Source of the DNA: Myxococcaceae bacterium
GTDB lineage: Bacteria; Myxococcota; Myxococcia; Myxococcales; Myxococcaceae
Assembly: GCA_016793095.1 (NCBI GenBank)
Contig: JAEUJQ010000001.1
Span: 62,001-126,000 of the forward strand
Length of the DNA stretch: 64,000 nt
Direction: 5' to 3'
Shown: in pieces, positions 15,461-34,960 of the stretch
How positions within the stretch are numbered: the first letter of the stretch is position 1
Layout: the number at the start of each line of letters is the position of its first letter
The notes under the pieces: generated by a model
Seen by the model: the letters and a program-made list of their open reading frames with translations, nothing else
What the model was told of the DNA's origin: nothing
Database searches by the model: none
Position numbers and translations under genes: made by a program

Positions 15461-15754
15461 GTGGCTTCCTCCGGACCCACATCGTCGGGTGATCTCCTCG
15501 CAGGTGTGCTGGCGGACGTGTCGCGACGGACGGGCTCGGCGCGAGTCCTCTTTCCGCTCTGGCGGCAGGTGGTCGGAGAGACGCTGGCCGGAGCCTCGGC
15601 GCCGCTCCGGTGGCAGGGCAGCACGCTCGTCATCGGCTGCTCGAGCGCGGCGTGGGCGACGGAGCTGACCCGCCAGCGCACCGAGTGCCTGCGGAAGCTG
15701 CAGCTGCGTCTCGGGAAGAAAATGGTCGAGTCCCTCGTCTTCGAGGCCGCATGA
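15461..15754 (+). CDS. DUF721 (DciA-like) protein
   Basis: This 97-aa protein starts at GTG. Its core pattern matches DUF721: LFPLWRQVVGETLAGASAPLRWQGSTLVIGCSSAAWATELTRQR, followed by a Leu/Lys helix (shown here by key features: the W-R-VVG, L-I-C-S-AWA-EL signature). DUF721 includes DciA, which helps load the replicative helicase in many bacteria. Whether this short copy does that cannot be told from sequence. Its stop overlaps the start of the next gene (ATGA at 15751-15754), so the two are probably co-translated. Confidence 0.75.
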   Translation: MASSGPTSSGDLLAGVLADVSRRTGSARVLFPLWRQVVGETLAGASAPLRWQGSTLVIGCSSAAWATELTRQRTECLRKLQLRLGKKMVESLVFEAA

Positions 15755-17238
15755 GCCTCGTCGTTGCCCTTCTCCTCGCCGCCGCGGGACCCACGATCGA
15801 GCGCGACGCGGCCTCGCAGGTGCGTCAGCGCTTCGAGCAGGCTGGCCGCTCGGTGCCGGCCGATGATCCGAGGCTGTTCTCCGCCGCCCGCGCGTTGGCC
15901 CGCCGCGCGCTGGATCGGACGGCCGGCGACGCAGCCGGGCTGTTGTCGGTGACCGAGGCGGTCTCGACGGCCGGTGGGTGGGACGCGAGCCCCACCGCCA
16001 TCCTGATCAAGGGGAGCCCTGCGCAGCTCCTCGAAGAGCTCTCCCAACAGCGCTCGCTCGCGAACGAGCCAGCCTCGGTGCTGGGAGTCGGGGTCGCGGA
16101 GGCGGGCGGGCGCGCCGCGCTCTGTGTGCTGCTCGGGCTGCGGAAGGTCGAGCTGGAGCCGGTCGCCCGCCACTTCAAGAAGCTGCCGCGTGAGGTGCGG
16201 GTCTGCGGCGAGCTTCTGCCGCCGCTCGAGACCGCCGAGCTCTTCGTCACGCAGCCCTCTGGCGCCGTCTCGCGCTTCCCGATGAGCGCGGTGAAGCAGA
16301 AGCGCTGCGCCACCTTCAAGCCCTCGGGTGAGGGGCGCTCGGCGGTCGAGGTCCTCGGCAAGGGTCCTCGCGGGCCCGAGGTCGCCGCGCTCTTCTTCCT
16401 CGACGTCGGCGCCACCGTGGCCAGCGTCGATCAGCAGGTGATCGAGCCCGCGACGGTCGAGGAGGGCCGTCGGGCCGTGCTGGCGCGGGTGAACGGGCTT
16501 CGCAAGACGATGGGGCTCGAGCTGGTTCGCGCCGATCCCGCGCTCGAGGCGATCGCGCAGGCCTGGGCGACGCGGCTGGCGACGGAGGGGTTCTTCGCGC
16601 ACGTCGATCCCTCGGGCGGCGATCTGAAGGGCAGGCTCAAGGCGGCGGGGTACCGCTTCCAGGCGGCCGGCGAGAACCTCGGCGCGTCCACCGGTCCGCT
16701 GGCGGCGCACTTCGGCATCGAGCACAGCCCGGGGCACCGGCTCAACCTGCTGGAGCCCGACCACCGGGTGCTCGGCGTGGGCATCACCCGCCGCGAGGAG
16801 GATGGGCTGACGGTGCTGGTCGAGGTGCTGGCGGCGCCGCTGGACGACGGTGGCGCCGATCCGGTGGGAGCCGTCTACCACGCCCTCGATGACCAGCGGC
16901 AGAAGCGGGCCTTGAAGCCGCTCAAGCGCAGCCCGGTGCTCGAAGCGCTCGCCCAGGAGCACGCCCGGCGGTGCCTGTCGCGAGACCTCCTGAAGGTCGA
17001 GCTGCCCGATGGCCGCAAGCTGCACGAGAAGGTCTTCGAGACCGTCGCCGACGCGAAGGAGGCCTCGATCGACCTCGCGATCGTCGATGCGCCATCCCTC
17101 GTGCCTGCCTCGAAGAACCTCACCGATGCGCGGTACGAGAGTGTGGGCGTCGGGCTGGTGCGCGGCGACTCCGAGCGGTACGGCAGCGACAAGCTCTGGC
17201 TCGTCGTGATCTACGCGAACCACGGCGCTGGCGACTGA
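15751..17238 (+). CDS. CAP (SCP/PR-1) domain exported protein
   Basis: The 495-aa product begins with a short hydrophobic stretch (MSLVVALLLAAAG), probably a signal peptide. The middle (about residues 235-360) is a CAP/SCP domain: RAVLARVNGLRKTMGL, then ATEGFFAHVDPSG, then AGENLG and a HSPGHRLNLL segment followed by VLGVGI. The His and Glu positions of the CAP cavity appear to be present. The N-terminal third and the C-terminal 130 residues, the latter perhaps a degenerate second copy, have no family I recognise. CAP proteins are secreted and bind lipids or cell-wall material in various systems; the bacterial role is mostly open. Starts in the 4-nt overlap with the DUF721 gene. Confidence 0.8.
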   Translation: MSLVVALLLAAAGPTIERDAASQVRQRFEQAGRSVPADDPRLFSAARALARRALDRTAGDAAGLLSVTEAVSTAGGWDASPTAILIKGSPAQLLEELSQQRSLANEPASVLGVGVAEAGGRAALCVLLGLRKVELEPVARHFKKLPREVRVCGELLPPLETAELFVTQPSGAVSRFPMSAVKQKRCATFKPSGEGRSAVEVLGKGPRGPEVAALFFLDVGATVASVDQQVIEPATVEEGRRAVLARVNGLRKTMGLELVRADPALEAIAQAWATRLATEGFFAHVDPSGGDLKGRLKAAGYRFQAAGENLGASTGPLAAHFGIEHSPGHRLNLLEPDHRVLGVGITRREEDGLTVLVEVLAAPLDDGGADPVGAVYHALDDQRQKRALKPLKRSPVLEALAQEHARRCLSRDLLKVELPDGRKLHEKVFETVADAKEASIDLAIVDAPSLVPASKNLTDARYESVGVGLVRGDSERYGSDKLWLVVIYANHGAGD

Positions 17239-20259: not shown

Positions 20260-20287
20260 TTCTGCACCTGGGGACGACCAGGATTTG

Positions 20288-20360
20288 TGACCCTGCCGGG
20301 ATTCGAACCCGGGTTTATGCCGTGAGAGGGCACCGTCCTAGGCCACTAGACGACAGGGCC
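20288..20360 (-). tRNA. tRNA-Glu (anticodon CTC)
   Basis: A 73-nt cloverleaf on the minus strand. The acceptor stem is GGCCCTG with CAGGGTC, the D-arm GTCTAGTGGCCTAGGAC, the anticodon loop CTCTCAC gives anticodon CTC (reads GAG), and the T-loop is GGGTTCGAATCCC. The discriminator is A. CCA is not encoded. Confidence 0.95.
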
Positions 20361-20472: not shown

Positions 20473-23400
20473 TTAGCGCCCCTTCCGCTCGGGCCAGGGC
20501 TCGATCACCCGGGACAGATCGACGAGGCGCAGGCTGCCGCCGCCGAGATCCTTCGTGATCGACTTCCCGTCCAGCACGTCGGCGGGCACGTAGTCGAAGG
20601 GCCGGCAGGTGAAGACGAGCACCTGCGCGGCGAGGGCCGACTTGCGGAGCGCCTCGACGAACCACCCCATGCGGTCGGCGTCTGTGTGCACGAGGTGATC
20701 GTCGAGCACGAGCGCCGTCTTCAGCTGCCGCGCCACCGCCACCCGCAAGAGGCTCGCGAGCTGATCCCGCGTCCCGACGGACAGCGCGTCGAGCACCACG
20801 GCCCCGTCTTCCATCGCCCCCTCGGCCTTCACCGACAGCGTCGTCAGATCGGGGCCGAGCTCGATCGTCCCATAGCGGCCCTTCGTCAGCTCCGTGAACT
20901 GGGCGGCGAGGGGGACGGCCAGCGCGCGGCCGAGGTGCCCGCCCTGCGCGTTCTCGGAGTCGCGCAGCGTCTGCTGCAGCAGCTGCCACGACTCGGCGTC
21001 GAGCTCGACCTCCTTCTCGCGGTCCTTCGCGGCGGCCAGCGCCTCTTCGAGCTGCTGCACGTGCTCGCGGAGCTGCGGGCCGCCCACCTTCGAGAGCGCG
21101 CCGTCGGCCTTGTGGAACTCGGCCTCCTTCTCGGACGACTGATCGCGGATGGCGGAGAGGAGCTGCTCGGCCTCGGCGAGCTGCTCCGGCGTCACGACGG
21201 GGGACGAACGCAACGGCGCCAGCGCGGCGTCGGCGGCGTCGAGGGCGTGCTGGGCCTTCGGCCGATCGAGCCGCGCGACCTCGGCCTCGAGCGCCCCGGC
21301 CTGGCCCCTGCGCTCGTGCAGGAGCGCGCGGGAGGCGTCGAGCTTCTGCCTCGCCGCGACCCGCGACTGCTCGGCGGCGGTGGCCAGCGAGCGCTGCTTC
21401 TCGAGCGCCTGCTGCGCCGTCTTCACCTCGGCGCCCTGCTCCGCCTCGAGCGCCTGCAGCGCCACCACCAGCTTCGCCTGCTCGTTCCTGGCCACCGTGA
21501 GCTGCTGGGCGAGCACGGTGACGTCGCCCTGCCCGTGCGCGCTGGCGGCAGCGGCCCCGAGCGACGCCTTGCGCTCCGACGCCACGGCGAGCGCCGCGCG
21601 CACCTTCGTCTGCGCCTCCACCATCGTCTCGAGCGCGCGCTGCTGATCCCGCTCGGCGCGCTCCGTCTGCAACTCCCAGCCGGCGCCGAGGGAGTCGAAG
21701 GCCGCGGCGATCATCGCCAGCTGCTCCTGGGGAATCCGGTCGCGCCGCCGCTGGAGCGCCTCCGCCGACTCGGCGCCGCTCCCCTGCCGCCCGATGAGGG
21801 CGACCTGCTCGCGCGCGCTGCGCTCCTCGGACCGCCAGCGCTCGAGGTTCGACGCGAGCCCCTGCAGCTCGCTGCGCTCCTTCGCGAGGGCGTCGTGGCG
21901 GGCCTGCAGCTCGGCCACCGAGGTGACCTCGGCCTTCGTCAGCGCCGGGAGCACCTCGTTGCGCCACCGCTTCGAGAGCGTGTCGCGCTGTTGTCGCGCG
22001 GCCTTCGTGCCGGCGACGATCTCGAGCTCGACCATCTGCCCCAGCGCCAGCGTCACCTTCCGCTCGGCGTCGAAGGCGCGGTCCTTGTTGGCGCGCACGA
22101 CCTCGTCCACCGGCGCCTCGTCGTCCACCTCGGCGTGGAGGCGAACCTCCTCGCGGGGCCGCACCACGACGCTCAGCCCGCCGCCCGCCTGCGCGTCGGC
22201 GACCCGGCGATCGGCCTCGAGCCTCGCGAACGCCGCGACCTGCTCTGTCGAGGGGAGCCCGCTCTGCGCCGCGGTGAGCGCCGCCTCACGCCGCCCGAGC
22301 TCGGCCTCTCCGGCCGCGAGCTGCTCGCGAACGGCCTTCGCCTTCTGCTCGAGCGCGACCAGCTCGGCCCGGGCCCTGCTCGCGCGCTCGGCGCCCTTCT
22401 CGGCGTCCTTCCAGCGGCCGTAGTCGAGGATCAACCGCGCCACCTCGACGCCCTGCTTCGCCGCCTGCGCCTGCCCGTCGAGCGCGTCGAGCTCGCGCTG
22501 CAGCCTGGCGGCCTCGGCCTCGACTGCGGCGAGCTGCTTCACCGAGTCCTGGGCCGCCTGGGCTTTCTCGAGCCGGGGCGCCAGGGTCGCGATCGTCGCC
22601 TCGAGCTCGGCCTTGCGGCTGGTGAGGTTCGCGCGCTGCAGCTCACGCGCCCTCGCGCCCTCCTGGCTCTGGGCGCGCTGGAGCGCCTCCTCGGCCGACT
22701 TCGTGGCCTGCCCCGCCGCGCGCGTCGCCTCGTCGGCCCTCCGAAGCGCCGCGTCGTCCTCCGCGACGGTCGCCTCGAGCGAGGTCACCTCGGCGCGCAG
22801 CGTCTCGGCCCGTCGCAGCACCTCGTCGATGCGCGCCAACGCCGCCCTCGCCTCGGCGACCTGCGCCTCGGCCGTGACCCGCGACCGGGAGCGCTCGACG
22901 CCACGGCGGGCCTCGTCCACCATCACCGTCGCGTCCTTCAGCTGCTGCCGCGCGACGTCCACCTCATGACGCAGCTTCGCGACCAGCCCCTCCGTCGAGG
23001 CCGACTGATCGAGCTGCGCGCGCGCCTGGGCGAGCTCGTCGGCCAGCTTCTTCACCTCGTCGCCCACGACCGCGAACCGGGAGCGCGCCCCACCCCGCCG
23101 GCGCCCCGTCTCGGTGAAGTACTGGTCGAGCTCGGCGGTGGCCTTGTCGAGCACGTGCTTGAAGAGCGGATCTTCGGCGAGGGCCGCGAGCGCCCGCGTC
23201 AGCCACTTCTTCGCGCTCTCGGAGTCGTCCCCATCGACGCCGCGCGCGAGGATGTCGTCCACCCCCGTCTGGGCGCCGAGCAGCACGTTCGACAGGAAGG
23301 TGTCGGGAATGCCGAAGCCGCCCCGCGCCTTGCCGCCGAGATCCGCTGCGCCCCACGGCAGCATCGTGCGCAGCTTCTGATCGACCTCGCGCGCCTTCGC

Positions 23401-23721
23401 CTCGAGCGTGTAGTCGCGCCCGTCCTTCGACGACGCCAGCTCGGCCTTCCCTTCGCCGAACGTCTTGATGACGCGCCACAGCCTTCCGTCATCGGCCTCG
23501 AAGACGAGCACCACCTGCGGGCTCGCGTCGCGGTACCACGGCACGAACGCCTGCCCCTCGGCGGACTTCGCCGGCACCAGCAGCGCGGCCCTCAGCGCCG
23601 TCACCAGCGTCGACTTGCCGAGGTCGTTCGGGCCGAACAGCACGTTGAGCTGCGGCGCGAACTCGAGCCCGGCGTGGGCGATCGCCTGGAAGCTCTTCAC
23701 CTCGAGGGACACGAACCGCAT
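20473..23721 (-). CDS. YhaN/SbcC-like ATPase with long coiled coil
   Basis: A 1082-aa SMC/Rad50-type ATPase. Walker A is GPNDLGKS at residues 30-37. The middle (about 190-930) is a long coiled coil rich in Ala, Glu, Arg and Gln, broken near residues 480-600. The ABC signature is LSVGTRDQLASLLRVA (about 980) and Walker B is LVLDDHLVHTD (about 1003). There is no CxxC zinc hook, unlike canonical SbcC/Rad50. The GTRDQ signature and DDHLVHTD box are closer to YhaN. It starts 3 nt after the stop of the SbcD-like gene, so they almost certainly form a complex. Likely role: DNA end processing or clearing of aberrant DNA (by family); a defence role is inference. Confidence 0.88.
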   Translation of the reverse strand: MRFVSLEVKSFQAIAHAGLEFAPQLNVLFGPNDLGKSTLVTALRAALLVPAKSAEGQAFVPWYRDASPQVVLVFEADDGRLWRVIKTFGEGKAELASSKDGRDYTLEAKAREVDQKLRTMLPWGAADLGGKARGGFGIPDTFLSNVLLGAQTGVDDILARGVDGDDSESAKKWLTRALAALAEDPLFKHVLDKATAELDQYFTETGRRRGGARSRFAVVGDEVKKLADELAQARAQLDQSASTEGLVAKLRHEVDVARQQLKDATVMVDEARRGVERSRSRVTAEAQVAEARAALARIDEVLRRAETLRAEVTSLEATVAEDDAALRRADEATRAAGQATKSAEEALQRAQSQEGARARELQRANLTSRKAELEATIATLAPRLEKAQAAQDSVKQLAAVEAEAARLQRELDALDGQAQAAKQGVEVARLILDYGRWKDAEKGAERASRARAELVALEQKAKAVREQLAAGEAELGRREAALTAAQSGLPSTEQVAAFARLEADRRVADAQAGGGLSVVVRPREEVRLHAEVDDEAPVDEVVRANKDRAFDAERKVTLALGQMVELEIVAGTKAARQQRDTLSKRWRNEVLPALTKAEVTSVAELQARHDALAKERSELQGLASNLERWRSEERSAREQVALIGRQGSGAESAEALQRRRDRIPQEQLAMIAAAFDSLGAGWELQTERAERDQQRALETMVEAQTKVRAALAVASERKASLGAAAASAHGQGDVTVLAQQLTVARNEQAKLVVALQALEAEQGAEVKTAQQALEKQRSLATAAEQSRVAARQKLDASRALLHERRGQAGALEAEVARLDRPKAQHALDAADAALAPLRSSPVVTPEQLAEAEQLLSAIRDQSSEKEAEFHKADGALSKVGGPQLREHVQQLEEALAAAKDREKEVELDAESWQLLQQTLRDSENAQGGHLGRALAVPLAAQFTELTKGRYGTIELGPDLTTLSVKAEGAMEDGAVVLDALSVGTRDQLASLLRVAVARQLKTALVLDDHLVHTDADRMGWFVEALRKSALAAQVLVFTCRPFDYVPADVLDGKSITKDLGGGSLRLVDLSRVIEPWPERKGR

Positions 23722-23724
23722 GCG

Positions 23725-24876
23725 TCAGGAGGCCTTCCTCGTCGAGCGGAACAGGTGGAACAGCGCGCGCTGCGCGACGGGTCGCCTCAGCGGATCATGC
23801 GCGACGGTCTGCAGCTTCTGCACCGTCGTCTGCAGGACCTGCGGCAGCGTCTGGCTCCAGTCGCTCAGGTTCGAGACGTCGAGCTCGAGGCGGTCGCGGC
23901 GCAGGTCGAGCACGCCCGCCATGCCATGCACGGCCTGGTTGCCGCCGAGCTGTTCGATCAGCCGCTCGGCCTCATCGAGCTCGGGCGCGGAGACGCTGAG
24001 ATCGACGGTGACACGGAGCACGCGCGACTTGAGATCCTGCCGCGCCACCAACTGCCGCAGCTGCGCCATCGAGGTGATCGCCACCTCTTCCCAGTCCCAC
24101 GAGGCCACCCGGCGCGGCGTCACCATCGCCCTGCGCTGCCGCGAGATGAAGACGATCGCGACCGAGCCGGGATCGCGCTCGTCGAAGGCCGTCGGCTCCG
24201 GCGCGCCCGGGTAGATGGTGGGCGGCTGCTTGCGCTCGGGCGGGATGAAGCGGAAGCCGTGGGTGTCGCCGAGGGCGAGGTAGTCGAGGCCGCGCTCCAC
24301 CGCCGCGTCCTTCGCGATGGGGAAGTTCGTCTGCGCGTTCGGCGCGTCGAAGGTGCTGCCGTGCACCATGCCGATGCGCACGCGCTCGTCGCCCGGCGCC
24401 CGCGACGGGATCTTCGCGGTGGGATCGAGCTGGCCCGCGCGCGACTCGCACGGCACCGCATGCAGGACGCAGCCGTTGGCCAACGCGAACTCCCCTGGCG
24501 CCTCGATCACGTGCGCCCACGCAGGGAGAGCGCGGCGAAACTTCGGGTCGAACCAGACCGAGTCCTGGAGCAGCGGATCGTGGTTGCCCGGCAGCAGGAA
24601 GACGGGCCGGTTCGTCCACTTCCGGCGCGCCAGACAGTCGGCGAGCCCGGCGCTCCACTCGGATGACGGGTTCGGCTCGTCGAAGAGATCGCCCGCGCAG
24701 AGCACCGCGTCGACGGCGTGCCGCTCGGCCTCGTTGAAGATGCGGTCGAGCACCTCGAGGCGCGCGCGCGAGAGCTTCAAGCTCGCCTCCTCGGAGAAGG
24801 AGCGGAAGCGGCGGCCCAGGTGCCAGTCCGCGGTGTGCAGGAGCTTCAGCACGATGTCGTCCTCCGTGCTCGTCAT
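23725..24876 (-). CDS. SbcD/YhaO-like metallophosphoesterase (DNA exonuclease)
   Basis: A 383-aa calcineurin-type phosphoesterase. The metal-site motifs are in order: HTADWHLG (residues 14-21), CAGDLFDE (about 60), LPGNHDPL (about 95), GMVHGS, and LGDTHGF in place of the usual GHxH. The C-terminal part after residue 270 resembles the DNA-capping region of SbcD/Mre11 relatives. Its ATG overlaps the stop of the helicase gene (ATGA, 24873-24876) and its stop is 3 nt from the ATPase start. It is the probable nuclease subunit of the complex. Two-metal dependent exo/endonuclease activity is expected from the family; the GDTH variant in the last motif is worth noting. Confidence 0.88.
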   Translation of the reverse strand: MTSTEDDIVLKLLHTADWHLGRRFRSFSEEASLKLSRARLEVLDRIFNEAERHAVDAVLCAGDLFDEPNPSSEWSAGLADCLARRKWTNRPVFLLPGNHDPLLQDSVWFDPKFRRALPAWAHVIEAPGEFALANGCVLHAVPCESRAGQLDPTAKIPSRAPGDERVRIGMVHGSTFDAPNAQTNFPIAKDAAVERGLDYLALGDTHGFRFIPPERKQPPTIYPGAPEPTAFDERDPGSVAIVFISRQRRAMVTPRRVASWDWEEVAITSMAQLRQLVARQDLKSRVLRVTVDLSVSAPELDEAERLIEQLGGNQAVHGMAGVLDLRRDRLELDVSNLSDWSQTLPQVLQTTVQKLQTVAHDPLRRPVAQRALFHLFRSTRKAS

Positions 24877-27797
24877 GTGAACACCACGTCGAGATCGACC
24901 AGCAGGTCGAGGCGCGGCGGCGTGTAGCGCCGGCCGTGAATGTGCTCGAGGAAGCGGCGGTAGCGCTCGTCGTCCCGCGCCTGCAGCTTCGCGATCTTCT
25001 CCTCGAGGGCCTGCAGCTCACGCCCGGCCACCTGCAGCCCGTGCTCGGCCGCCGTGCGCGCCTCGGAGCCGATGGCCCCGTCGCGCCGCTTCGTCGCGGA
25101 GTCGATCTTCTGCTCGACCTCGGCCCGTTGCCGCCGCAAGACGAGGAGCCGATCGTCGAGGAACCGCTGGGCCTGCAGCGACGCGGCCTCGAAGCGCCGG
25201 TGCTCGGCGTCGTCCACGTCGGTCTGGAGCAGGAAGAGCGTCTGCTCCTGCGCGTCGGCCATGATCGCGTCGTCGATCGCGCGCGCCGCCTTCACGTCGG
25301 CCATGGCCTCGTCGAGCAGCCCGCGCGCCGCCGGCTGATCGAGCACCTGCGCGTCGGGGCTGACGACGATCGGCACGATCAGCTCGACGCGCTCGAAGCC
25401 GTCGAACACCGCGCGCACCAGCCGCAGCCGGCCCGTGCCTGCGGGGATCCCCCACTCTGGCCGACGAGCGAGCGAGATCGCACCACCACCGCTGAAGCGC
25501 CTCGCGTCCTCCACCGCCGCGCGCACGAGCGGGTGCCCGAGGTGAAGCGACTGGTGCTCCGCAGCGACCCCCAGGGCGACCGTGACGCCTTCGCGCAGCG
25601 CTGGCAGCAACGGCGAGGCGGCGATGACGAGCAGCGTCGCTCCGTCGCGGGTCTGCTCCTCGAAGCCGATCCCGTGTGCCGCCAGCCACTCGCGCACCAC
25701 CTGCCCCAGCTCGTGATCGAGCGCGGCGAGGGACGACGAGACGGCGTCGCGGTGCAGCCGGAAGACCCGCTGGACCTCGTCGTCGAAGCGCTGCTCGATG
25801 ATCCCGATGGTGCGGGCGCGGGTCTCCTCGTAGCGGCGCCGATCCTCGGCGACCTTCTCCCGCAGCGCGCGCAGCTCGGCGTGCACCTCCTCGATCGTCC
25901 GGGCCCGCTCGTAGATGCGCGCGAGCTCGGCCTCGACCTCAGCGCCGAGCGCGCTCGCGAGCACCTCACCGTCGGCGCCCTGCGGCCGGTGGAGGACCTG
26001 GTCCGACGCGCTCAGCACCGTGCCGAACAGCTCGAGCTTCTGCGCGAGGATCTCGAAGGTCAGCGCCTGCGCCTCGTTGTCCTTGGCGATGAAGTTGATG
26101 ACCGTGACGTCGTGCTGCTGGCCGTAGCGGTGGCAGCGGCCGATGCGCTGCTCGATGCGCTGCGGGTTCCAGGGCAGATCCCAGTTCACCACTGCGTTGC
26201 AGAACTGCAGGTTGAGGCCTTTGGCGCCGGCCTCGGTCGAGATGAAGACGCGGGTGCGCGTCTTGAACTCGTGCACGAGCGCGAGCCGCAGCGCGATGTC
26301 CTTGCTCGGCGGTTGAGCGTCAGCCGGCACCTCGGCGCGCCACCGCTCGAGCGCCTGGTGGGCGCGGGGCCCGTCATTGGTGCCCCGGAAGAGCGTGATC
26401 TCACCCGGGCGCACGAGGCCGCTCTCGACGAGCGCGTCGCGCAGGTACTCCTGGGTGACGAGCGACTCGGTGAAGATCACCAGCTTGTCCGAGCCCTGCC
26501 CGGCCTTCGCGCGCGTCGCGACGAAGTCGATGGCGGTGAGCAGCGCCCGGAACCGCCCGTCGTCGCGCACCAGCGCGTTCGCGCGCTGAATGAACGTCTC
26601 GACCCGCGCGAGCTCCATCGACACGTTCACCGGCTCCGCGCTCGCCGGCGCGTCGTCATCGGCTGGCACGACCAGCTCGTCGTCGTCGAGATCAGCCACC
26701 ATCGCGTCGAGGGCGCGATCGTCTGGAGCCTCGCCTCGCGCGATCTTCCTGAGCCGCGCGGCGACATGCTCGAGCGAGGACGCCAGGGCCCGGGTGGACG
26801 ACGCCATGCGGCGGTGAAAGCCGAGCAGCAGCAGCTTGCGGTGGCGCCCCTGAAAGGCGCGGATCCCGGGCTCGAGCAGGTACTTCGTCACGTCGTCGTA
26901 GAGGGCGCGCTCCGAGACGCTCATCGAGTACTCGAAGAGCCGCGCCTGGCGCCCGACGAAGGGCTTCTCGAGGAACGCCTGGGCCTGGCGCCGCAGGGTG
27001 CGCTGGAGCACGTGCTCGAGGCGGCTGCGCAGCTCCTGCTCCTGCCCGCGGGCGAGCTGGCGATCGTCGTCGCCGCAGAAGACCTGCCGGAACGTGGGCA
27101 GGTCGCCGAGCAGCGTGCCGAGCGGATCGACGTACTGCACGAGGCCCCACAGCTCGGCGAGGTTGTTCTGGATCGGCGTGGCGGTGAGCAGCAGCACCGG
27201 CGTCTGGCTCGCCTGCAGCACCTCGCGCACCCTGCCCGCCGTGCGCGCCGCCGGGGCCTCGTCGTCGTAGTCTCCCGACGGCCGGAACCGCTTGTAGATG
27301 CCCGCGAAGACCTCGTGCGCCTCGTCGATCACGCAGAGATCGAACGGCTCGCTCGACAGCAGCGCGTCGCGCCCCTTCTCGGATCCTGCCGCCTCGCGGT
27401 TCACGAGGAACACCCCGGGGCCGTCGAACCCGCCCGGCTTCGGCTGCCCTTCCCGCGCCTCGAGATCGAACAGCGTCATCAGCTCGTCCCGCCACTGGCC
27501 GACGAGGGACTTGGGGGCGATCAGCAGCACGCGCCGGGCGCCCTCGGCGAGCAGCTGGGTGATCACGAGCCCGGCCTCGATCGTCTTCCCGAGGCCCACC
27601 TCGTCCGCGAGGATGCAGCCCCCTTCCCTCACCCGGGCGAGCGCGAAGACGACGGCGTCGATCTGGTGCGGGTTGGGATCGATGCGGGCAGCGCGCTGTG
27701 GGGCGATCGCGCGGCGGTGCTCGTCGCTTCGGCGCAGGCGGACCAGCTCCTCGGCGTGCAGGCGGCGCTGGAGCGGGTGGGAAGAGCCTTTCGGCAT
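24873..27797 (-). CDS. SNF2-family (RapA-like) helicase, first gene of the helicase-SbcD-YhaN operon
   Basis: A 974-aa SF2/SNF2 ATPase. Motifs in order: the Q-region HQIDAV (about residue 44), Walker A DEVGLGKTIEAG (about 65), DEAH (VIDEAHEVF at about 158), LLLTATPIQNN (about 205), and in the second lobe STEAGAKGLNLQ and QRIGRCHRYGQ (about 550). A 300-residue C-terminal helical region ends in a coiled coil (VEQKIDSATKRRD, LEEKIAKLQARDDER). It would translocate on double-stranded DNA without classical unwinding. It leads an operon with overlapping or 3-nt-spaced nuclease and coiled-coil ATPase genes, so it may open or remodel DNA or remove bound protein for them. RapA-type RNA polymerase recycling is a less likely alternative given this context. 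Confidence 0.88.
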   Translation of the reverse strand: MPKGSSHPLQRRLHAEELVRLRRSDEHRRAIAPQRAARIDPNPHQIDAVVFALARVREGGCILADEVGLGKTIEAGLVITQLLAEGARRVLLIAPKSLVGQWRDELMTLFDLEAREGQPKPGGFDGPGVFLVNREAAGSEKGRDALLSSEPFDLCVIDEAHEVFAGIYKRFRPSGDYDDEAPAARTAGRVREVLQASQTPVLLLTATPIQNNLAELWGLVQYVDPLGTLLGDLPTFRQVFCGDDDRQLARGQEQELRSRLEHVLQRTLRRQAQAFLEKPFVGRQARLFEYSMSVSERALYDDVTKYLLEPGIRAFQGRHRKLLLLGFHRRMASSTRALASSLEHVAARLRKIARGEAPDDRALDAMVADLDDDELVVPADDDAPASAEPVNVSMELARVETFIQRANALVRDDGRFRALLTAIDFVATRAKAGQGSDKLVIFTESLVTQEYLRDALVESGLVRPGEITLFRGTNDGPRAHQALERWRAEVPADAQPPSKDIALRLALVHEFKTRTRVFISTEAGAKGLNLQFCNAVVNWDLPWNPQRIEQRIGRCHRYGQQHDVTVINFIAKDNEAQALTFEILAQKLELFGTVLSASDQVLHRPQGADGEVLASALGAEVEAELARIYERARTIEEVHAELRALREKVAEDRRRYEETRARTIGIIEQRFDDEVQRVFRLHRDAVSSSLAALDHELGQVVREWLAAHGIGFEEQTRDGATLLVIAASPLLPALREGVTVALGVAAEHQSLHLGHPLVRAAVEDARRFSGGGAISLARRPEWGIPAGTGRLRLVRAVFDGFERVELIVPIVVSPDAQVLDQPAARGLLDEAMADVKAARAIDDAIMADAQEQTLFLLQTDVDDAEHRRFEAASLQAQRFLDDRLLVLRRQRAEVEQKIDSATKRRDGAIGSEARTAAEHGLQVAGRELQALEEKIAKLQARDDERYRRFLEHIHGRRYTPPRLDLLVDLDVVFT

Positions 27798-28493: not shown

Positions 28494-31400
28494 TCACTGC
28501 CTCTGCAGCCGTCCCGACGCCGGCGCCGGCACCGCGATGCACACGCGCATCGCCTCGACGTGCCCGTTCGGCTTCTCCACGAGGATGTACTCGCACTGGG
28601 TGCCGGTCGCGCAGTCGCTGTCGTTGCAGCACTTGTCCACGCAGACGTTCCGGTTCCGCTCGCAGAACTGCGACAGGCAGTCGGCGTTCGACGAGCAGGC
28701 CTGGCCCGCGACCCGGGTGCCCATGGTGGTGCGGGGGACGCAGAGCGGGAAGCCGGTGTCGGCCGGCTCTCCGGTGCCGCCGAGCGTGCCCACCTGCGTC
28801 GCCGGCCCCAGCAACGTGCAGTAGGTCCCCATCGTGCAGTCGGCGTTCTTGCAGCACGGCTCGCCGCACACGCCGTTGAAGCACGAGAGCGCGCCCCACT
28901 TGCAGTCGGCGCCCGTACACGCCTGCCCCTGTGTCTTCGTGCCCGCGATGCGCGAGGTGAGCAGGCACTGGCCGTAGTAGAGCGCCGGCGTCGAGCCGTT
29001 CGACACCACGCAGGTCGTGTTCGCCGAGCAGTAGTTGCGATCGTTCCCGCACAGATCACCGCAGGCACGAATGCCCATGCCGTAGTTGAGGCACGAGCCG
29101 CTCTTGCACTGGTTGTCGTTGCTGCACGCCGCGCCGGCGCCCGCGGTCGCGGTGATGCCCGAGGCCGTGCAGAGATGATCGTTGTAGCCGATGGTGAGCC
29201 GCGAGGCGCACGACTGACCGCTGGGGCACCCGTCGCCGACGCCCGCGCCGGGCTGGCTGAAGTTGCAGAACGAGCCGCAGGTGCGCGCGCCGGTCGTGGA
29301 GTCGATCGCGCACAGGAACCGATCCCTGCAGACGTCGTTGGCGGCCCAGCCGCAGTTCTGGCCGACGCCGCAGTTCTGCACGGTGGCGGCGTTGCAGTCG
29401 TTGTCCTTGCCGTCGCAGAGCTCAGGCGCGCCCGGGTAGACGGTGTTGTCGTTGTCGGCGCAGTCGCCGGTGCACTGGCTGTAGCCGTCGCCGTCGTTGT
29501 CGGCGGTGGAGCACCCGCAGGTCTCGTCCGTGCGACCATTGCAGTTGTCATCGACGCCGTTGGCGGGCGGGCAGCCGGGCACCAGAGCCGTCGCGCAGAC
29601 GCCGCAGTCGTACGTCTTGCCCGGGTGCACGAAGGCGTTGCCGTCGTTGCAGTCCACCCGGCCCGACTGGAGGCCCGGCCCGCAGGCGCCCCAGGTGCCC
29701 GTGCACGCGGCGCTCCGGCAGCCGGGGTGGGTGCCGCAGGTGGTGTAGCAGTCGTTGTCGGCGTCGAAGCCCTCGTCGATGAGCGTGTCGCAGTCGTTGT
29801 CGCGGCCGTCGCAGATCTCCGTCGCGCCCGGGCGGATGGTGGCGTCGTTGTCGTTGCAGTCGCCACCGCAGACGGTGACCCCATCGAAGTCCGCGTCGAC
29901 CCCGCCGCCGCCGCTGCAGCCACAGACGTTCGCGGTGCCGCCGCCGCCGCAGGTCTGAGGGGAAGTACAGGCGCCGCAGCTCAGAGTGCCGCCGCAGCCG
30001 TCCGAGATGGTGCCGCAGTTCTTCCCCTGCGCGACGCACGTCGTGGGCGTGCAGCCGCAGACGTTCGCGGTGCCCGCGCCGCCGCACGTCTGGGGCGCCG
30101 TGCAGGAACCGCAGCTCAACGTCCCGCCGCAGCCGTCGGGAATGGAGCCGCAGTTCTTCCCCTGCGCCGCGCAGGTCGTCGGTGTGCACCCGCACACGTT
30201 CGCGGTCCCTCCGCCGCCGCACGTCTGGGGCGCGGTGCAGGCGCCACAGCTCAACGTGCCTCCGCACCCGTCAGCGATCGAGCCACAGTTCTTCCCCTGC
30301 GCCGCGCACGTCGTCGGCGTGCAGCCGCACACGTTCGCCGTGCCGGAGCCGCCGCACGTCTGGGGCGCGGCGCAGGCGCCACAGCTCAGCGTGCCTCCGC
30401 AGCCGTCGGCGATGGAGCCGCAGTTCTTCCCCTGCGCCGCGCACGTCGTCGGCGTGCAGCCACACCCGTTCGCCGTGCCGGATCCGCCGCACGTCTGGGG
30501 CGCGCTGCACACGCCGCACATCAGGGTGCCGCCGCAGCCGTCGGAGATGGAGCCGCAGTTCTTCCCCTGCGCCGCGCACGTCGTCGGGGTGCAGCCGCAC
30601 ACGTTCGCCGTGCCCGAGCCGCCGCACGTCTGAGGGGCGGTACAGGCGCCGCAGCTCAACGTGCCGCCGCAGCCGTCGGCAATGGAGCCGCAGTTCTTCC
30701 CCTGCGCCGCGCACGTCGTCGGCGTGCACCCGCACACGTTGGCGGTGCCCGCGCCGCCGCAGGTCTGGGGTGCGGTGCAGGTGCCGCAGCTCAACGTCCC
30801 GCCGCAGCCGTTGGGAATGGGGCCGCAGTTCTTCCCCTGCGCCGCGCACGTCGTCGGGGTGCACCCGCACACGTTCGCCGTCCCTGCGCCGCCGCAGGTC
30901 TGGGGCGCGCTGCACGTCCCGCACGACAGCGTCGCGCCGCAGCCGTCAGAGATGGTGCCGCAGTTCTTCCCCTGCGCCACGCACGTCGTCGGCACGCAGG
31001 GCACGAGGCCGCAGACGTTCGCCGCGCCGCCGCCACCGCAGACCTCAGGCATCACGCAGACACCGCAGGTCAACGTGCCGCCGCAGCCATCGGGGATGGT
31101 GCCGCAGTTCTTCCCCTGCGCCGCGCACGTCGTCGGCGTGCAGCCACACACGTTCGCCGTGCCCGAGCCTCCGCAGGTCTGCGGCGCCGAGCAGGTTCCG
31201 CAGCTCAGCGTGCCCCCGCACCCGTCGGGAATGGAGCCGCAGTTCTTCCCCTGCGCAGCGCACGTCGTTGGCGTGCAGCCACACACGTTCGCCGTGCCGG
31301 AGCCTCCACACGTCTGAGGCGAGGTACAGACGCCGCACGACAGCGTCCCGCCACAACCGTCGGGAATGGAGCCGCAGTTCTTCCCCTGCGCCGCGCACGT

Positions 31401-32936
31401 CGTCGGCGTGCAGCCACACACGTTCGCCGTGCCCGCGCCTCCGCAGGTCTGCGGTGACGTGCAGGATCCACAGCTCAGCGTGCCGCCACAGCCGTTGGGA
31501 ATGGTGCCGCAGTTCTTCCCCTGCGCCGCGCACGTCGTGGGCGTGCACCCGCACACGTTCGCCGTCCCCGTACCGCCGCACGTCTGGGGCGCGCTGCAGA
31601 CGCCGCACATCAGCGTGCCGCCGCAGCCATCGGGGATGGCGCCGCAGTTCTTCCCCTGCGCCGCGCACGTCGTCGGCGTGCACCCGCACACGTTCGCCGT
31701 GCCCGCGCCGCCACACGTCTGGGGCCCGACGCAGACGCCGCACATCAACGCGCCACCGCAGCCGTCGGGAATGGCGCCGCAGTTCTTCCCCTGCGCCGCG
31801 CACGTCGTGGGCGTGCACCCGCACACGTTCGCCGTGCCTGCGCCACCACACGTCTGAGGTGCCATGCAGACGCCGCAGCTCAGGGTGCCGCCGCAGCCAT
31901 CGGGGATCGAGCCGCAGTTCTTCCCCTGCGCCGCGCAGGTCGTCGGCGTGCACCCGCACACGTTCGCCGCGCCAGCCCCTGCGCAGGTCTGCGGCGCCGA
32001 GCAGATGCCGCAGTTCAACGTGCCGCCGCACGCGTCTGGAATGGAGCCGCAGTTCTTCCCCTGCGTCGCGCACGTCGTCGGCGTGCACCCGCAGACGTTG
32101 GCCGTGCCCGCGCCTCCACACGTCTGAGGGGCGGTGCAGTTCCCGCAGCTCAGCGTGCCGCCACAGCCGTCGGAGATGGTGCCGCAGTTCTTCCCCTGTG
32201 CCGCGCAGGTCGTCGGCGTGCAGCCACACACGTTCGCGACGCCCGCGCCGCCGCACGTCTGGGGCGCCGTGCAGGTACCGCAGCTCAGCATGCCGCCGCA
32301 GCCGTCATCGACGGACCCGCAGTTCTTCCCGAGCGCCGCGCAGGACACGGGCGGCAGCGGCGTGCAGGTGCCGGGCGTTCCATTCACGCAGGCCGGCGCC
32401 GTCGTCTGGCACGCGCCGGTGCCGCAGGTGATCACCGCCGCCTCGAAGTCCTCGTCGAAAAGACCGTCGCAGTCGTCGTCGCGGCCGTTGCAGAGCTCGG
32501 TCTGCGAGTTCACGACGCCGGTGCAGGAGCCGAAGGAGCCAGCCGCGCAGGTCTGCGTGCCCAGGCGGCACTCGCCGAACTTCGAGGTGCCGCAGCTGCG
32601 GGGCTCGCCGTCGAAGCAGGCAGGAGGCGGACCGCCGGCGTCGGGCTCCTCCCCGGCGTCCACGGCCATCGGCTGAATGCACTGGCCGCTCGAGGGCAGG
32701 CACACGTAACCGCCGTCCACGTCGCAGTCGGCGTTGGTCGCGCACAGGACCTGGGCGTCGGGGAGCTCCGGGTCGGTGCACACGCCCATCACGCAGCGGC
32801 GCGGCGCCTCGCAGTCCGGGTCCGTGGTGCACTCGGGGCCGGGCGGGGGATCCATCTTCGCGGGCGCCACGCACTGGCACGCCGAGTGGAGCGCGAGCGC
32901 GATCAGCGCGAACCGGAACGTCGGGCGGATCGTCAT
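28494..32936 (-). CDS. Giant Cys-repeat lipoprotein with MopE-type metal-binding motifs
   Basis: A 1480-aa lipoprotein (signal and lipobox region FALIALALHSAC). An early segment has a MopE-like NGRDDDCDGLFDED. Eighteen tandem Cys-rich repeats of 45 residues follow (about residues 195-1007). Each has the pattern TPTTCAAQGKNCG, DGCGGTLSCG, CTAPQTCGG and NVCGC, with eight Cys per unit. Then come several putative metal-binding motifs (DCNDNDATIRPGATEICDG, DNDCDTLIDE, GDCADNDNTVYPGAPELCDG), and a C-terminal Cys-rich region. MopE of Methylococcus binds copper through a related motif, so metal binding at the surface is plausible but unproven. The start at 32936 overlaps the stop of the preceding lipoprotein gene (ATGA), so the two are probably co-expressed. 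Confidence 0.88.
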   Translation of the reverse strand: MTIRPTFRFALIALALHSACQCVAPAKMDPPPGPECTTDPDCEAPRRCVMGVCTDPELPDAQVLCATNADCDVDGGYVCLPSSGQCIQPMAVDAGEEPDAGGPPPACFDGEPRSCGTSKFGECRLGTQTCAAGSFGSCTGVVNSQTELCNGRDDDCDGLFDEDFEAAVITCGTGACQTTAPACVNGTPGTCTPLPPVSCAALGKNCGSVDDGCGGMLSCGTCTAPQTCGGAGVANVCGCTPTTCAAQGKNCGTISDGCGGTLSCGNCTAPQTCGGAGTANVCGCTPTTCATQGKNCGSIPDACGGTLNCGICSAPQTCAGAGAANVCGCTPTTCAAQGKNCGSIPDGCGGTLSCGVCMAPQTCGGAGTANVCGCTPTTCAAQGKNCGAIPDGCGGALMCGVCVGPQTCGGAGTANVCGCTPTTCAAQGKNCGAIPDGCGGTLMCGVCSAPQTCGGTGTANVCGCTPTTCAAQGKNCGTIPNGCGGTLSCGSCTSPQTCGGAGTANVCGCTPTTCAAQGKNCGSIPDGCGGTLSCGVCTSPQTCGGSGTANVCGCTPTTCAAQGKNCGSIPDGCGGTLSCGTCSAPQTCGGSGTANVCGCTPTTCAAQGKNCGTIPDGCGGTLTCGVCVMPEVCGGGGAANVCGLVPCVPTTCVAQGKNCGTISDGCGATLSCGTCSAPQTCGGAGTANVCGCTPTTCAAQGKNCGPIPNGCGGTLSCGTCTAPQTCGGAGTANVCGCTPTTCAAQGKNCGSIADGCGGTLSCGACTAPQTCGGSGTANVCGCTPTTCAAQGKNCGSISDGCGGTLMCGVCSAPQTCGGSGTANGCGCTPTTCAAQGKNCGSIADGCGGTLSCGACAAPQTCGGSGTANVCGCTPTTCAAQGKNCGSIADGCGGTLSCGACTAPQTCGGGGTANVCGCTPTTCAAQGKNCGSIPDGCGGTLSCGSCTAPQTCGGAGTANVCGCTPTTCVAQGKNCGTISDGCGGTLSCGACTSPQTCGGGGTANVCGCSGGGGVDADFDGVTVCGGDCNDNDATIRPGATEICDGRDNDCDTLIDEGFDADNDCYTTCGTHPGCRSAACTGTWGACGPGLQSGRVDCNDGNAFVHPGKTYDCGVCATALVPGCPPANGVDDNCNGRTDETCGCSTADNDGDGYSQCTGDCADNDNTVYPGAPELCDGKDNDCNAATVQNCGVGQNCGWAANDVCRDRFLCAIDSTTGARTCGSFCNFSQPGAGVGDGCPSGQSCASRLTIGYNDHLCTASGITATAGAGAACSNDNQCKSGSCLNYGMGIRACGDLCGNDRNYCSANTTCVVSNGSTPALYYGQCLLTSRIAGTKTQGQACTGADCKWGALSCFNGVCGEPCCKNADCTMGTYCTLLGPATQVGTLGGTGEPADTGFPLCVPRTTMGTRVAGQACSSNADCLSQFCERNRNVCVDKCCNDSDCATGTQCEYILVEKPNGHVEAMRVCIAVPAPASGRLQRQ
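29916..32354 (-). repeat. Eighteen 135-bp tandem coding repeats
   Basis: Eighteen units of 135 bp run head to tail (one is 144 bp, at about 31.0 kb) and encode the 45-residue Cys-rich repeat. A nearly invariant core encodes AAQGKNCG and recurs every 135 bp from 30016 upward. Divergence is concentrated in a few codons of each unit. This suggests expansion by unequal recombination with purifying selection on the Cys, Gly and Asn positions. Confidence 0.95.
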
Positions 32937-34960
32937 GGAGCGACCTCGTACCAGCCGATGCCGCCAGGCCGGGTGGCGTTGGGAGCGCACTGCAGGCTGC
33001 CGCGCTGGCGCCAGCCGAAGCGCGAGAGCACCGGGGACGTGACGTAGCCGCCGTCACCGGCGCCGGGCACGACGACGACGGGCCGGGGACGCCCGCCGTC
33101 CGACAGGAGCGCCACCGACGTGGGCCACTCGACGTCCGCCAGGTGGAGCAGCTGGCACGGCGCGCCGACCGCCAGCTCGTCGGGAGGCGTGAGGGTCTCG
33201 AGGGGCACCACGGCCGACGGCGTCGCCTCGCCACGCAGGAAGAGCCTGAGCACCGGCTTCGCGGGCACCACGCAGCGGCCAGCGCCGATCGGCGCGCTCG
33301 TCTTCGGGGCCTCGTCGGCCACGCACACCTGTCCGGCCACGCAGTCACAGCGCTCGCCGTCACGACAGGCTCCGCCCACGGTGCAGCCCGCGTCAGGCCG
33401 GCGGCGATCGGCGAAGACGTGCGCCATCACCCGGTAGGTGCAGACGCCGGCGTCGCAGCGCGCGTCGTGCTCGGGGTAGTTGAGGGAGGCCGTCTCGATC
33501 AGTTGGCCGGTGCCGATGTCGTCGAGGTTCAGCCGCGGATCGTCGAACGCTCCCGGCAGGCCCCAGTCGAAGTCCGTGCCGGGCAGGTTCTGCTGCAGCA
33601 GCGCCGCGTAGCCGTTGAGATCGCCCGCCGTGCCGCCGTCACCTTCCGAGAAGAACGAGAACGGCGCCGACGACGGCCGCACGAGGTGGAGATCGAGATC
33701 GACGTCGGAGAACCCGCTCCATGAGAGCTGGGCCACGAGATCGCGCTTGAGGGCGACCTCGAAGGTGACGGTGGCGACGCTGGTGTGCCCCTGCGCGTCA
33801 GCCACGGTGAGCTCGACGGTGTACGCGCCGGTCGCGAGCGGGAGGAGCCGCGCCAGCCCAGGGGCCTGCGGAGCGATCGGCGGCGCCATGGTGCCCGCGG
33901 GCGCGGCGAGCACCCGCCACTGCCAGGTGAGCCCGAGCCGCCCGTCTTCGGGATCCGTGGTGCAGTCGGTCTCGTCAGCGCTCGAGAGGGCGCTTAGCGT
34001 CACGTCGGACCGCGGCTGGATCTCGCGCACGGCGCGCAGGTCGAACCCGGCGTCGGCAAGCCCGTTCACGAGCGGCGCCCAGTGCGCGGGCCCGGAGTAG
34101 TCGCGCGGGGCGGAGCCGTCGCTGGGCACCACGCGCACGACGTTCAGGCACACGCGGGGCGCGAGGTTGGGGCGCAGGGCTCCGGCGAGCGGCACCCGCA
34201 CCTCGGGCCGCAGCACGTCGTCGGAGCGGGCGATCACCTCGGCGCGGTAGTCGAGCTGGGTCTCGCTGAGCGGCGAGAAGCGCAGCGGAATGGTCGTCCG
34301 GGCCTGGGGCGCCACCCGCAGCGGCAGCACGGGCGGCTCGACGAAGGTGAAGGCCCTCGCGTCAGCGCCGGCGATCGACAGCGCGTCGATGAGGAGCTCG
34401 ACCGGCCCGTCGTTGCGGACGATCAGCGCTGGGAGCGTCGGCACGGCGCCGGGGAGTCGTCTCGCGAACGCCTCAGGCGCGAAGTCAACGCGCGGAGGTG
34501 TGGCGGTGACGGTCGCGCGGCAGCCGGTCGAGGCGTCGCAGCGGGGCTCGATCACCAGCACCGGGGTCGCGCCCTCCCCGCCCACCGGCACGCGGAGCGG
34601 CGAGTTCTCGGGATCGTTCGAGGTGATCACGATGGCGCCCTCGAAGCGGGTGAGCCCGGTCGGCGCGAACCGCACGGGCAGCCGCTGCTGGGTGAGCCCG
34701 GGGATCGCGGTGGGCGCCTCCCCGAGGGAGAACTCGCCCGGCCCATCCACCACGATCGACGAGGTGAGGAGCTCGACCTGCGTCTGGGACGAGATGACGA
34801 GCGGGAGCTCGAGCGGCGCCGACGGCTTCACCTTGCCGAACTCGAGGGCCACCGGATCCACGCCGATGCCGGGCGCCAGCCGCTGCACCGACCCACCACA
34901 CCCGCGGCACCCGGCAAGGACGACGAGGGCTGCGAAGGTGGCGAGGCGGATCGCAGACAT
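32933..34960 (-). CDS. Lipoprotein with N-terminal HYDIN/ASPM-like Ig domains
   Basis: A 675-aa lipoprotein with signal peptide and lipobox VLAGC (start ATG 34960). Residues about 25-250 form two Ig-like domains of the choice-of-anchor D/ASPM-SPD2-HYDIN kind (LEFGKVKPSAPLELPLVI, LPVRFAPTGLTRFEGAIVI, SNDPENSPLRVPV). The middle resembles a PKD-like domain (GAYTVELTVADAQGHTSVATVTFEV). A C-terminal half with WSGFSDVDLDLHLVRP follows, plus a small Cys cluster (CTVGGACRDGERCDC). It is the first gene of a two-gene unit with the Cys-repeat lipoprotein, overlapping by 4 nt. Likely surface adhesion or scaffold; exact role unknown. An in-frame ATG at 35008 would lack a proper signal peptide. Confidence 0.85.
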   Translation of the reverse strand: MSAIRLATFAALVVLAGCRGCGGSVQRLAPGIGVDPVALEFGKVKPSAPLELPLVISSQTQVELLTSSIVVDGPGEFSLGEAPTAIPGLTQQRLPVRFAPTGLTRFEGAIVITSNDPENSPLRVPVGGEGATPVLVIEPRCDASTGCRATVTATPPRVDFAPEAFARRLPGAVPTLPALIVRNDGPVELLIDALSIAGADARAFTFVEPPVLPLRVAPQARTTIPLRFSPLSETQLDYRAEVIARSDDVLRPEVRVPLAGALRPNLAPRVCLNVVRVVPSDGSAPRDYSGPAHWAPLVNGLADAGFDLRAVREIQPRSDVTLSALSSADETDCTTDPEDGRLGLTWQWRVLAAPAGTMAPPIAPQAPGLARLLPLATGAYTVELTVADAQGHTSVATVTFEVALKRDLVAQLSWSGFSDVDLDLHLVRPSSAPFSFFSEGDGGTAGDLNGYAALLQQNLPGTDFDWGLPGAFDDPRLNLDDIGTGQLIETASLNYPEHDARCDAGVCTYRVMAHVFADRRRPDAGCTVGGACRDGERCDCVAGQVCVADEAPKTSAPIGAGRCVVPAKPVLRLFLRGEATPSAVVPLETLTPPDELAVGAPCQLLHLADVEWPTSVALLSDGGRPRPVVVVPGAGDGGYVTSPVLSRFGWRQRGSLQCAPNATRPGGIGWYEVAP

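Follow-up and report, generated by a model that had tools for sequence, protein, structure and literature searches.

The stretch of DNA analysed here, referred to as the window, comprises 64,000 nucleotides of one contig of a Myxococcaceae bacterium. On its minus strand, three genes (the trio) encode, in transcription order, an SNF2-family protein, an SbcD-like nuclease and an SbcC-like ATPase (Table 1; L, G and C numbers denote loci, genomes and contigs). The SNF2 and SbcD genes overlap by 4 nt, and the SbcD and SbcC genes are separated by a gap of 3 nt. The compact three-gene operon that had been described in an earlier reading of the DNA, made from its letters (the sequence-only reading), was thus confirmed. 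Since the three genes keep this order and strand in other phyla as well, the arrangement is more than chance.

Table 1. Features of the three-gene operon and its 3' flank (window coordinates).
Feature	Position	Strand	Basis
SNF2-family ATPase/translocase, DrmD/RapA-like, operon gene 1, 974 aa	24873..27797	-	Pfam SNF2-rel_dom and Helicase_C; DrmD_b; motifs; model matches RapA
SbcD/Mre11-like calcineurin-type nuclease, 383 aa	23725..24876	-	Metallophos; TIGR00619; PDB SbcD/Mre11 chains
Motif V GDTH for GHxH, residues 203-206 of the SbcD-like protein	24259..24270	-	sequence/alignment
Rad50/SbcC/YhaN-like coiled-coil ABC ATPase without zinc hook, 1082 aa	20473..23721	-	profile, alignment, model
Predicted six-stranded beta domain at the coiled-coil apex, residues ~513-571	22009..22185	-	AlphaFold2 model; aligned region in relatives
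tRNA-Glu(CTC) beside the operon 3' end; conserved-site marker, outside the machine	20287..20360	-	

The nuclease was matched by Pfam Metallophos and by SbcD/Mre11 chains of the PDB. TIGR00619 gave 79.0 bits against a cut-off of 77.65, mainly over residues 10-101 in the N-terminal part, and it fell just below the cut-off on most of the SbcD-like orthologues; no PADLOC model matched in a search with the nuclease. The motifs DWH, GDLFD, GNHD and HGST/HGQT are retained, and the replacement of GHxH by GDTH at motif V, noticed in the sequence-only reading, was confirmed. GDTH is present in all 19 aligned rows and at 34 of the 37 distinct loci (L061 is outside the count), the exceptions being L164 and L165 with GDHH and L133 without most catalytic residues, whereas all four distant two-gene homologues carry GHWH. 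At L133 (4681-9013, in G108), SbcD and SbcC form a pair that lacks SNF2; the nuclease reading frame is open there, but its catalytic motifs are gone. A second SbcD-like copy, in two frames and with an internal stop, was seen in the Planctomycetota MAG that holds L052 (G575, contig C85, 9749-10886).

For the ATPase of the window, Pfam gave weak SMC/AAA heads only, PADLOC gave weak ATPase-head matches, and AAA_27 gave no match at E<=0.01 (protein P0003). AAA_27 is above its cut-off in the ATPases of L050 and L063, and no match was listed for those of L054, L057, L064 and L131. The motifs GPN, LGKS, the signature S.G...Q, LDD and TC.P are retained. The protein contains a single cysteine, and a zinc-hook CxxC was found in 0 of 27 ATPase sequences, 8 of which are partial. 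The ATPase is therefore hook-less, as had been claimed, but two-gene relatives align through the apex region too, so the absence of the hook is no special trait of the trio. In an AlphaFold2 model based on 13 sequences (mean pLDDT 75.1 and pTM 0.40 for the whole), the coiled coil is capped by a six-stranded beta domain with a local pLDDT of ~80; PDB matches of the model were SMC, Wadjet JetABC and Rad50 proteins. Two-gene relatives (L027-L029) can be aligned over the length of the trio ATPase, and the alignment takes in the apex. The apex domain therefore probably predates the trio, and its status as a trio-only trait was rejected. The zinc hook and the SMC hinge have been reported to be interchangeable (PMC6969161). 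By eye, the orthologue at L064 (3906-8048) has a hydrophobic, membrane-like stretch in place of the apex beta domain.

The SNF2 protein of the window carries the motifs GLGKT, DEAH, TATP, GLNLQ and QRIGR. Its NCBIfam matches were DrmD_b with 400 bits, under the cut-off of 950, and RapA with 132 bits; the PADLOC models matching it were DrmD, BrxHI/HII, HmaA and DpdE, and the best ones are defence helicases. The top PDB matches of its structure model, which is of moderate confidence (71.8, pTM 0.47), were RapA. Together with the NCBIfam RapA score, these matches speak for a RapA-like RNA-polymerase remodeller, in which case the operon would clear transcription-replication conflicts by displacing RNA polymerase and trimming the exposed DNA end or fork. 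This explanation is considered improbable: a RapA match is to be expected of most SNF2 models, DrmD_b scores three times as high as RapA, and the structure model is of moderate confidence. A second SNF2 protein, ~38-40% identical to that of the trio, is encoded at L039 (~7726-9645, G000:C33), and similar second proteins are present in most genomes of the window's family.

A scan of named genome contigs revealed 19 loci whose relatives are 43-77% identical along the protein; the next matches, at similar coverage, do not exceed 29% identity. The loci are labelled as Myxococcota, Acidobacteriota groups, Planctomycetota, Gammaproteobacteria, Verrucomicrobiota and Rokuibacteriota, although all 19 come from MAGs and individual assignments could result from faulty binning (L048 duplicates the contig of G005, and L049 that of G018). 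The neighbourhood search suggested in the sequence-only reading thus bore out the trio as a recurrent unit, with the same order in MAGs labelled with six phyla. Matches at E<=1e-40 were found in 10 of 195 genomes of the window's phylum group, and in 5 of 149 when only high-quality genomes are counted. For the group of G195, the figure is 23 of 377 at E<=1e-45; 9 of the 377, with E<1e-100, were taken as the trio clade, and the remaining 14 (~1e-46 to 1e-58) were assigned to the two-gene family by assumption. At E<=1e-90, seeds included, the counts were 4/396 in the group of G572 and 1/293 in the order of G574. A universal housekeeping operon with no defence association, the case that the sequence-only reading had named as evidence against itself, is rejected by this patchiness (10/195, 9/377, 4/396, 1/293).

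Gene order was assessed in 38 pooled SbcD loci, consisting of 10 of the window's family, 17 other named loci and 11 obtained by sampling. The SNF2 gene lies directly upstream of SbcD in 34 of these 38 clade loci (exceptions: L058, L133, L164 and L165), and SbcC lies directly downstream of SbcD in 35 of 37, L061 ending at a contig edge. The two exceptions for SbcC are G004, where it lies elsewhere (L042, apart from L025), and L052, with none within 5 kb. In G004, SNF2-SbcD is on C59 (L025) and the SbcC-like gene on C362 (L042) with differing neighbours, which may reflect a rearrangement or an assembly fault. Frameshifts occur at L049, L059 and L061. By-eye counts gave an SNF2/SbcD overlap of exactly 4 nt in 18 of the 25 loci with both genes and of 7 nt in two; L056, L057 and L065 have short gaps under the chosen start, although longer ORFs at L056 and L057 would overlap, and the remaining two loci, L059 and L061, are frameshifted.

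Trees were built for SbcD (26 rows) and, by a quick method, for SNF2 (22 rows) and SbcC (20 rows). The window's genus, L131+L132, L050+L068 (weakly supported in the SbcD tree, 82/47) and the gammaproteobacterial clade are groups common to all three; L053+L054 groups in two trees (SbcD and SbcC) and L059+L062 in that of SbcD alone, the rows concerned being absent from the others. Because the trees agree on the main groups, the three genes appear, from their sequences, to travel together. The groupings of L050 (with L068), L053+L054 and L059+L062 span named phyla. These results bear on a further explanation, namely that the nuclease is a plain two-gene one of the SbcD/YhaN-like kind and the SNF2 gene, unrelated to it, only happens to be in its operon. 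Relatives without SNF2 do exist (L027-L030), and SNF2 is absent at the four clade loci named above. However, its position immediately upstream at all other clade loci across named phyla, the agreement of the trees and the loss of most catalytic motifs from the nuclease at L133, a locus without SNF2, make this explanation hard to credit. An all-against-all comparison of neighbours for a recurrent fourth gene returned mostly flanks common to related genomes; an FG-GAP/ASPIC protein was found near the trio in L057 and L171-L173. At L063, a 261-aa ORF overlaps the end of SbcC and has no Pfam match at E<=1e-5.

The genomic site is constant in the window's genus: tRNA-Glu adjoins the trio in G001 and G005 and, judged by sequence match, also in G003 and G006, with further flanks in common with G001. 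G002 is a species of this genus without the trio, and in the empty-site comparison its tRNA-Glu lies at a contig edge. The trio is flanked by gltX- and glnS-type genes in three genomes from the group of G572. Integration into the 3' end of tRNA-Glu is not supported, since the operon is located 5' of the tRNA in the window and on another contig than tRNA-Glu in G018, G109 and G110.

The sequence-only reading had given the trio the shape of a DNA repair or an anti-plasmid/anti-phage module. In a dedicated system against phages, plasmids and other foreign DNA, the clamp would sense foreign ends or structures, the DrmD/BrxHII-type SNF2 protein would drive along the invader, and the nuclease would degrade it. 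Evidence for this comes from L054/L136, a Kofleriaceae MAG, where BrxE, BrxC, PDC-S27, PglX, PglZ, BrxD, BrxHI, SNF2, SbcD and SbcC lie on one strand and the genes overlap from PglZ through SbcC, so that the trio directly continues a BREX operon. Here BrxHI has a C-terminal 3'-5' exonuclease domain (DNA_pol_A_exo1), and BrxE is accompanied by a PDC-S27 candidate-family ATPase between BrxC and PglX (L054 3264-6026, and L136); PDC-S27 proteins at L132 and L136 are 24% identical (E 2e-4). In 20 neighbourhoods (107 proteins), clear defence genes were found at three loci, as raw counts with no background control: L054, L057 (a type II methyltransferase) and L068 (AbiEi). PDC-S27, PDC-S01, PD-T4-6, mad6 and DinG gave further single PADLOC matches among the 107 neighbours and were not placed by locus. 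The 107 scanned proteins are from 121 neighbour ORFs; those unscanned are 4 antisense within the cysteine-rich gene, 2 very long (L131, L132) and 8 short, terminal or doubtful, and the neighbours of L158-L173 lie outside the PADLOC scan. A GajB-like match at L050 was discounted as a defence gene because it covers the C-terminal helicase part only.

The defensive explanation is also favoured by the patchy spread of the whole unit across phyla and by the DrmD, BrxHII and DpdE matches of the SNF2 protein. On the other side, tblastn with the BREX proteins of L054 placed them beside none of the other loci tested, and PADLOC at E<=1e-6 matched 0 of the 25 other window ORFs. Defence-island association as a rule, which had been proposed as a check, was therefore not borne out (3/20 neighbourhoods). 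Chromosomal sites are stable within genera, and no methyltransferase or other self-marking gene travels with the trio. No close trio copies were found in viral contigs, in phages (3 records at 26-31%) or on plasmids (146 records, all <60%, the ten listed at 31-36%); a phage or plasmid origin was rejected, only distant relatives being present there. Dedicated defence is held as the main rival explanation, though a tentative one. Somewhat more doubtful is its specific form, in which a DrmD/BrxHII-type motor drives a hook-less nuclease that mostly stands alone and serves as the degradative arm of BREX in at least one lineage.

A role in repair was approached through the co-occurrence of canonical SbcD, defined as TIGR00619 at >=133 bits. 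In the window's family, canonical SbcD is present in 0 of 10 trio carriers versus 12 of 25 non-carriers (Fisher p=0.007), and overall in 5/34 versus 19/46 (p=0.013); the 34 carriers omit the hosts of L051, L053, L058 and L061, and G108, G377 and G565 are without adjoining SNF2. Outside the window's family the values are 5/24 and 7/21 (p=0.50), by which strict exclusion of SbcCD is rejected there. Within the window's genus, the sole trio-less species, G002, has canonical SbcD; among the non-carriers of genus g16, it is present in G021 and absent from G107 and G111. Because the species are non-independent and the 46 non-carriers were hand-picked, the association is only a hint that the trio substitutes for SbcCD in the window's family. 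In M. xanthus treated with mitomycin C, the canonical SbcC1D1 goes up and SbcD2 goes down (PMC12288472).

Based on these results, the explanation preferred here is a DNA-processing complex of the Mre11-Rad50 type, assisted by a motor, that has a role in chromosomal repair and is occasionally recruited to defence, at a probability of about 0.48. The machine itself is likely; between repair and defence the odds are almost equal, repair being slightly preferred. The reading is built on the operon, its conserved order, the agreeing trees, the kept catalytic motifs, one BREX continuation and family carriers without canonical SbcD. The three proteins would form one physical complex. An SbcD-like dimer and a pair of coiled-coil ATPases may make up an Mre11-Rad50-type clamp for the recognition of DNA ends, hairpins or blocked ends, the ATPase arms being joined via the apex beta domain rather than a zinc hook. 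The SNF2 protein would track on double-stranded DNA, stripping protein blocks or feeding duplex to the nuclease. The main job would be the processing of chromosomal DNA ends or forks, a function that overlaps that of SbcCD, whose place the complex may have taken in the window's lineage. The whole unit may have spread between phyla and could be recruited into a defence operon.

The points counted for repair are the fixed sites, the order at 34/38 and 35/37 loci, the agreeing trees, the distribution of SbcD in the window's family (0/10 versus 12/25), the lack of PADLOC matches among the 25 window ORFs, the lack of close viral, phage and plasmid copies, and the SbcC1D1 response in M. xanthus. Counted against it are the non-exclusive SbcD outside the family and the best SNF2 models being defence helicases, though RapA scores too; the patchy cross-phylum spread and the BREX operon at L054 fit defence equally well. 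The LDD motif of the ATPase, which we take to be a change of the catalytic Glu to Asp that may lower hydrolysis, also counts against the repair reading.

The trio resembles several known systems in part. It shares with SbcCD/Mre11-Rad50 a nuclease and an ABC ATPase in one operon, a Rad50-type head and an SbcD-type N-terminal domain, but differs in GDTH for GHxH, the missing zinc hook, the apex beta domain and the fixed SNF2; canonical SbcD proteins, which TIGR00619 matches over their full length, form a family of their own. Another relative is a two-gene pair that we presume to be like YhaO/YhaN of B. subtilis: the ATPases align end to end, apex included, and AAA_27 exceeds its cut-off in the trio ATPases of L050 and L063, though the window's ATPase has no such match at E<=0.01; the pair has no SNF2 and carries GHWH. 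In M. xanthus, the two-gene family is perhaps represented by SbcD2 with its RecN-like neighbour (PMC12288472). The trio SNF2 is DrmD-like, as in DISARM, but below the DrmD_b cut-off, and PADLOC found no DrmA/B/C or methyltransferase among the 25 other window ORFs. A related SNF2 type (BrxHII) is known from BREX, whereas PglZ, BrxC and PglX/BrxL are absent in the window and BREX genes occur only at L054/L136 among the loci tested. Lamassu and Wadjet likewise combine an SMC/Rad50-like coiled-coil ATPase with a nuclease partner (PMC10586767); the trio differs in its metallophosphoesterase nuclease and SNF2 motor. LmuB models reached 22-27 bits, mostly on the head, with no LmuA among the 25 other window ORFs, and for Wadjet no Jet model is among the 25 of 37 matches listed for the ATPase and no PADLOC match among the other 25 ORFs. 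The claim that a dedicated SNF2 motor is fixed to an SMC/Rad50-like nuclease pair, in a combination unlike Wadjet, Lamassu, DISARM and classical SbcCD, is therefore supported. The motor is the new part, and the apex domain is common to a wider two-gene SbcD/YhaN-like family. The trio is a real and apparently unnamed variant of the SbcCD/YhaNO kind with conserved gene order and a dedicated SNF2 motor; a literature search, judged from titles and the starts of abstracts of mostly non-subscription papers, found no description of it.

Mre11-Rad50 complexes must handle protein-blocked DNA, and helper motors are usually encoded separately. In the trio, gene order ties a double-strand motor to an Mre11-Rad50-type nuclease across a large phylogenetic distance, and the coupling of motor and nuclease thereby becomes directly testable in bacteria. 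If the trio replaces SbcCD, it would be a second solution for DNA-end processing; if it defends, it would be an unlisted system whose nuclease has no PADLOC model and which is able to join BREX.

Several other genes were observed in the window. At 28494-32990, a cysteine-rich protein of 1498 aa is encoded in which a unit of 135 bp (45 aa) is repeated about 18 times in tandem, with 84% matches; the array spans 29915-32342. A CAP-domain protein (cysteine-rich secretory protein family) with two matched stretches is encoded at 15610-17238, a bacterial serpin at 36539-37780 (E 3e-104), and a metallo-beta-lactamase of the Beta-CASP/RMMBL RNA-hydrolase type at 50203-51591.
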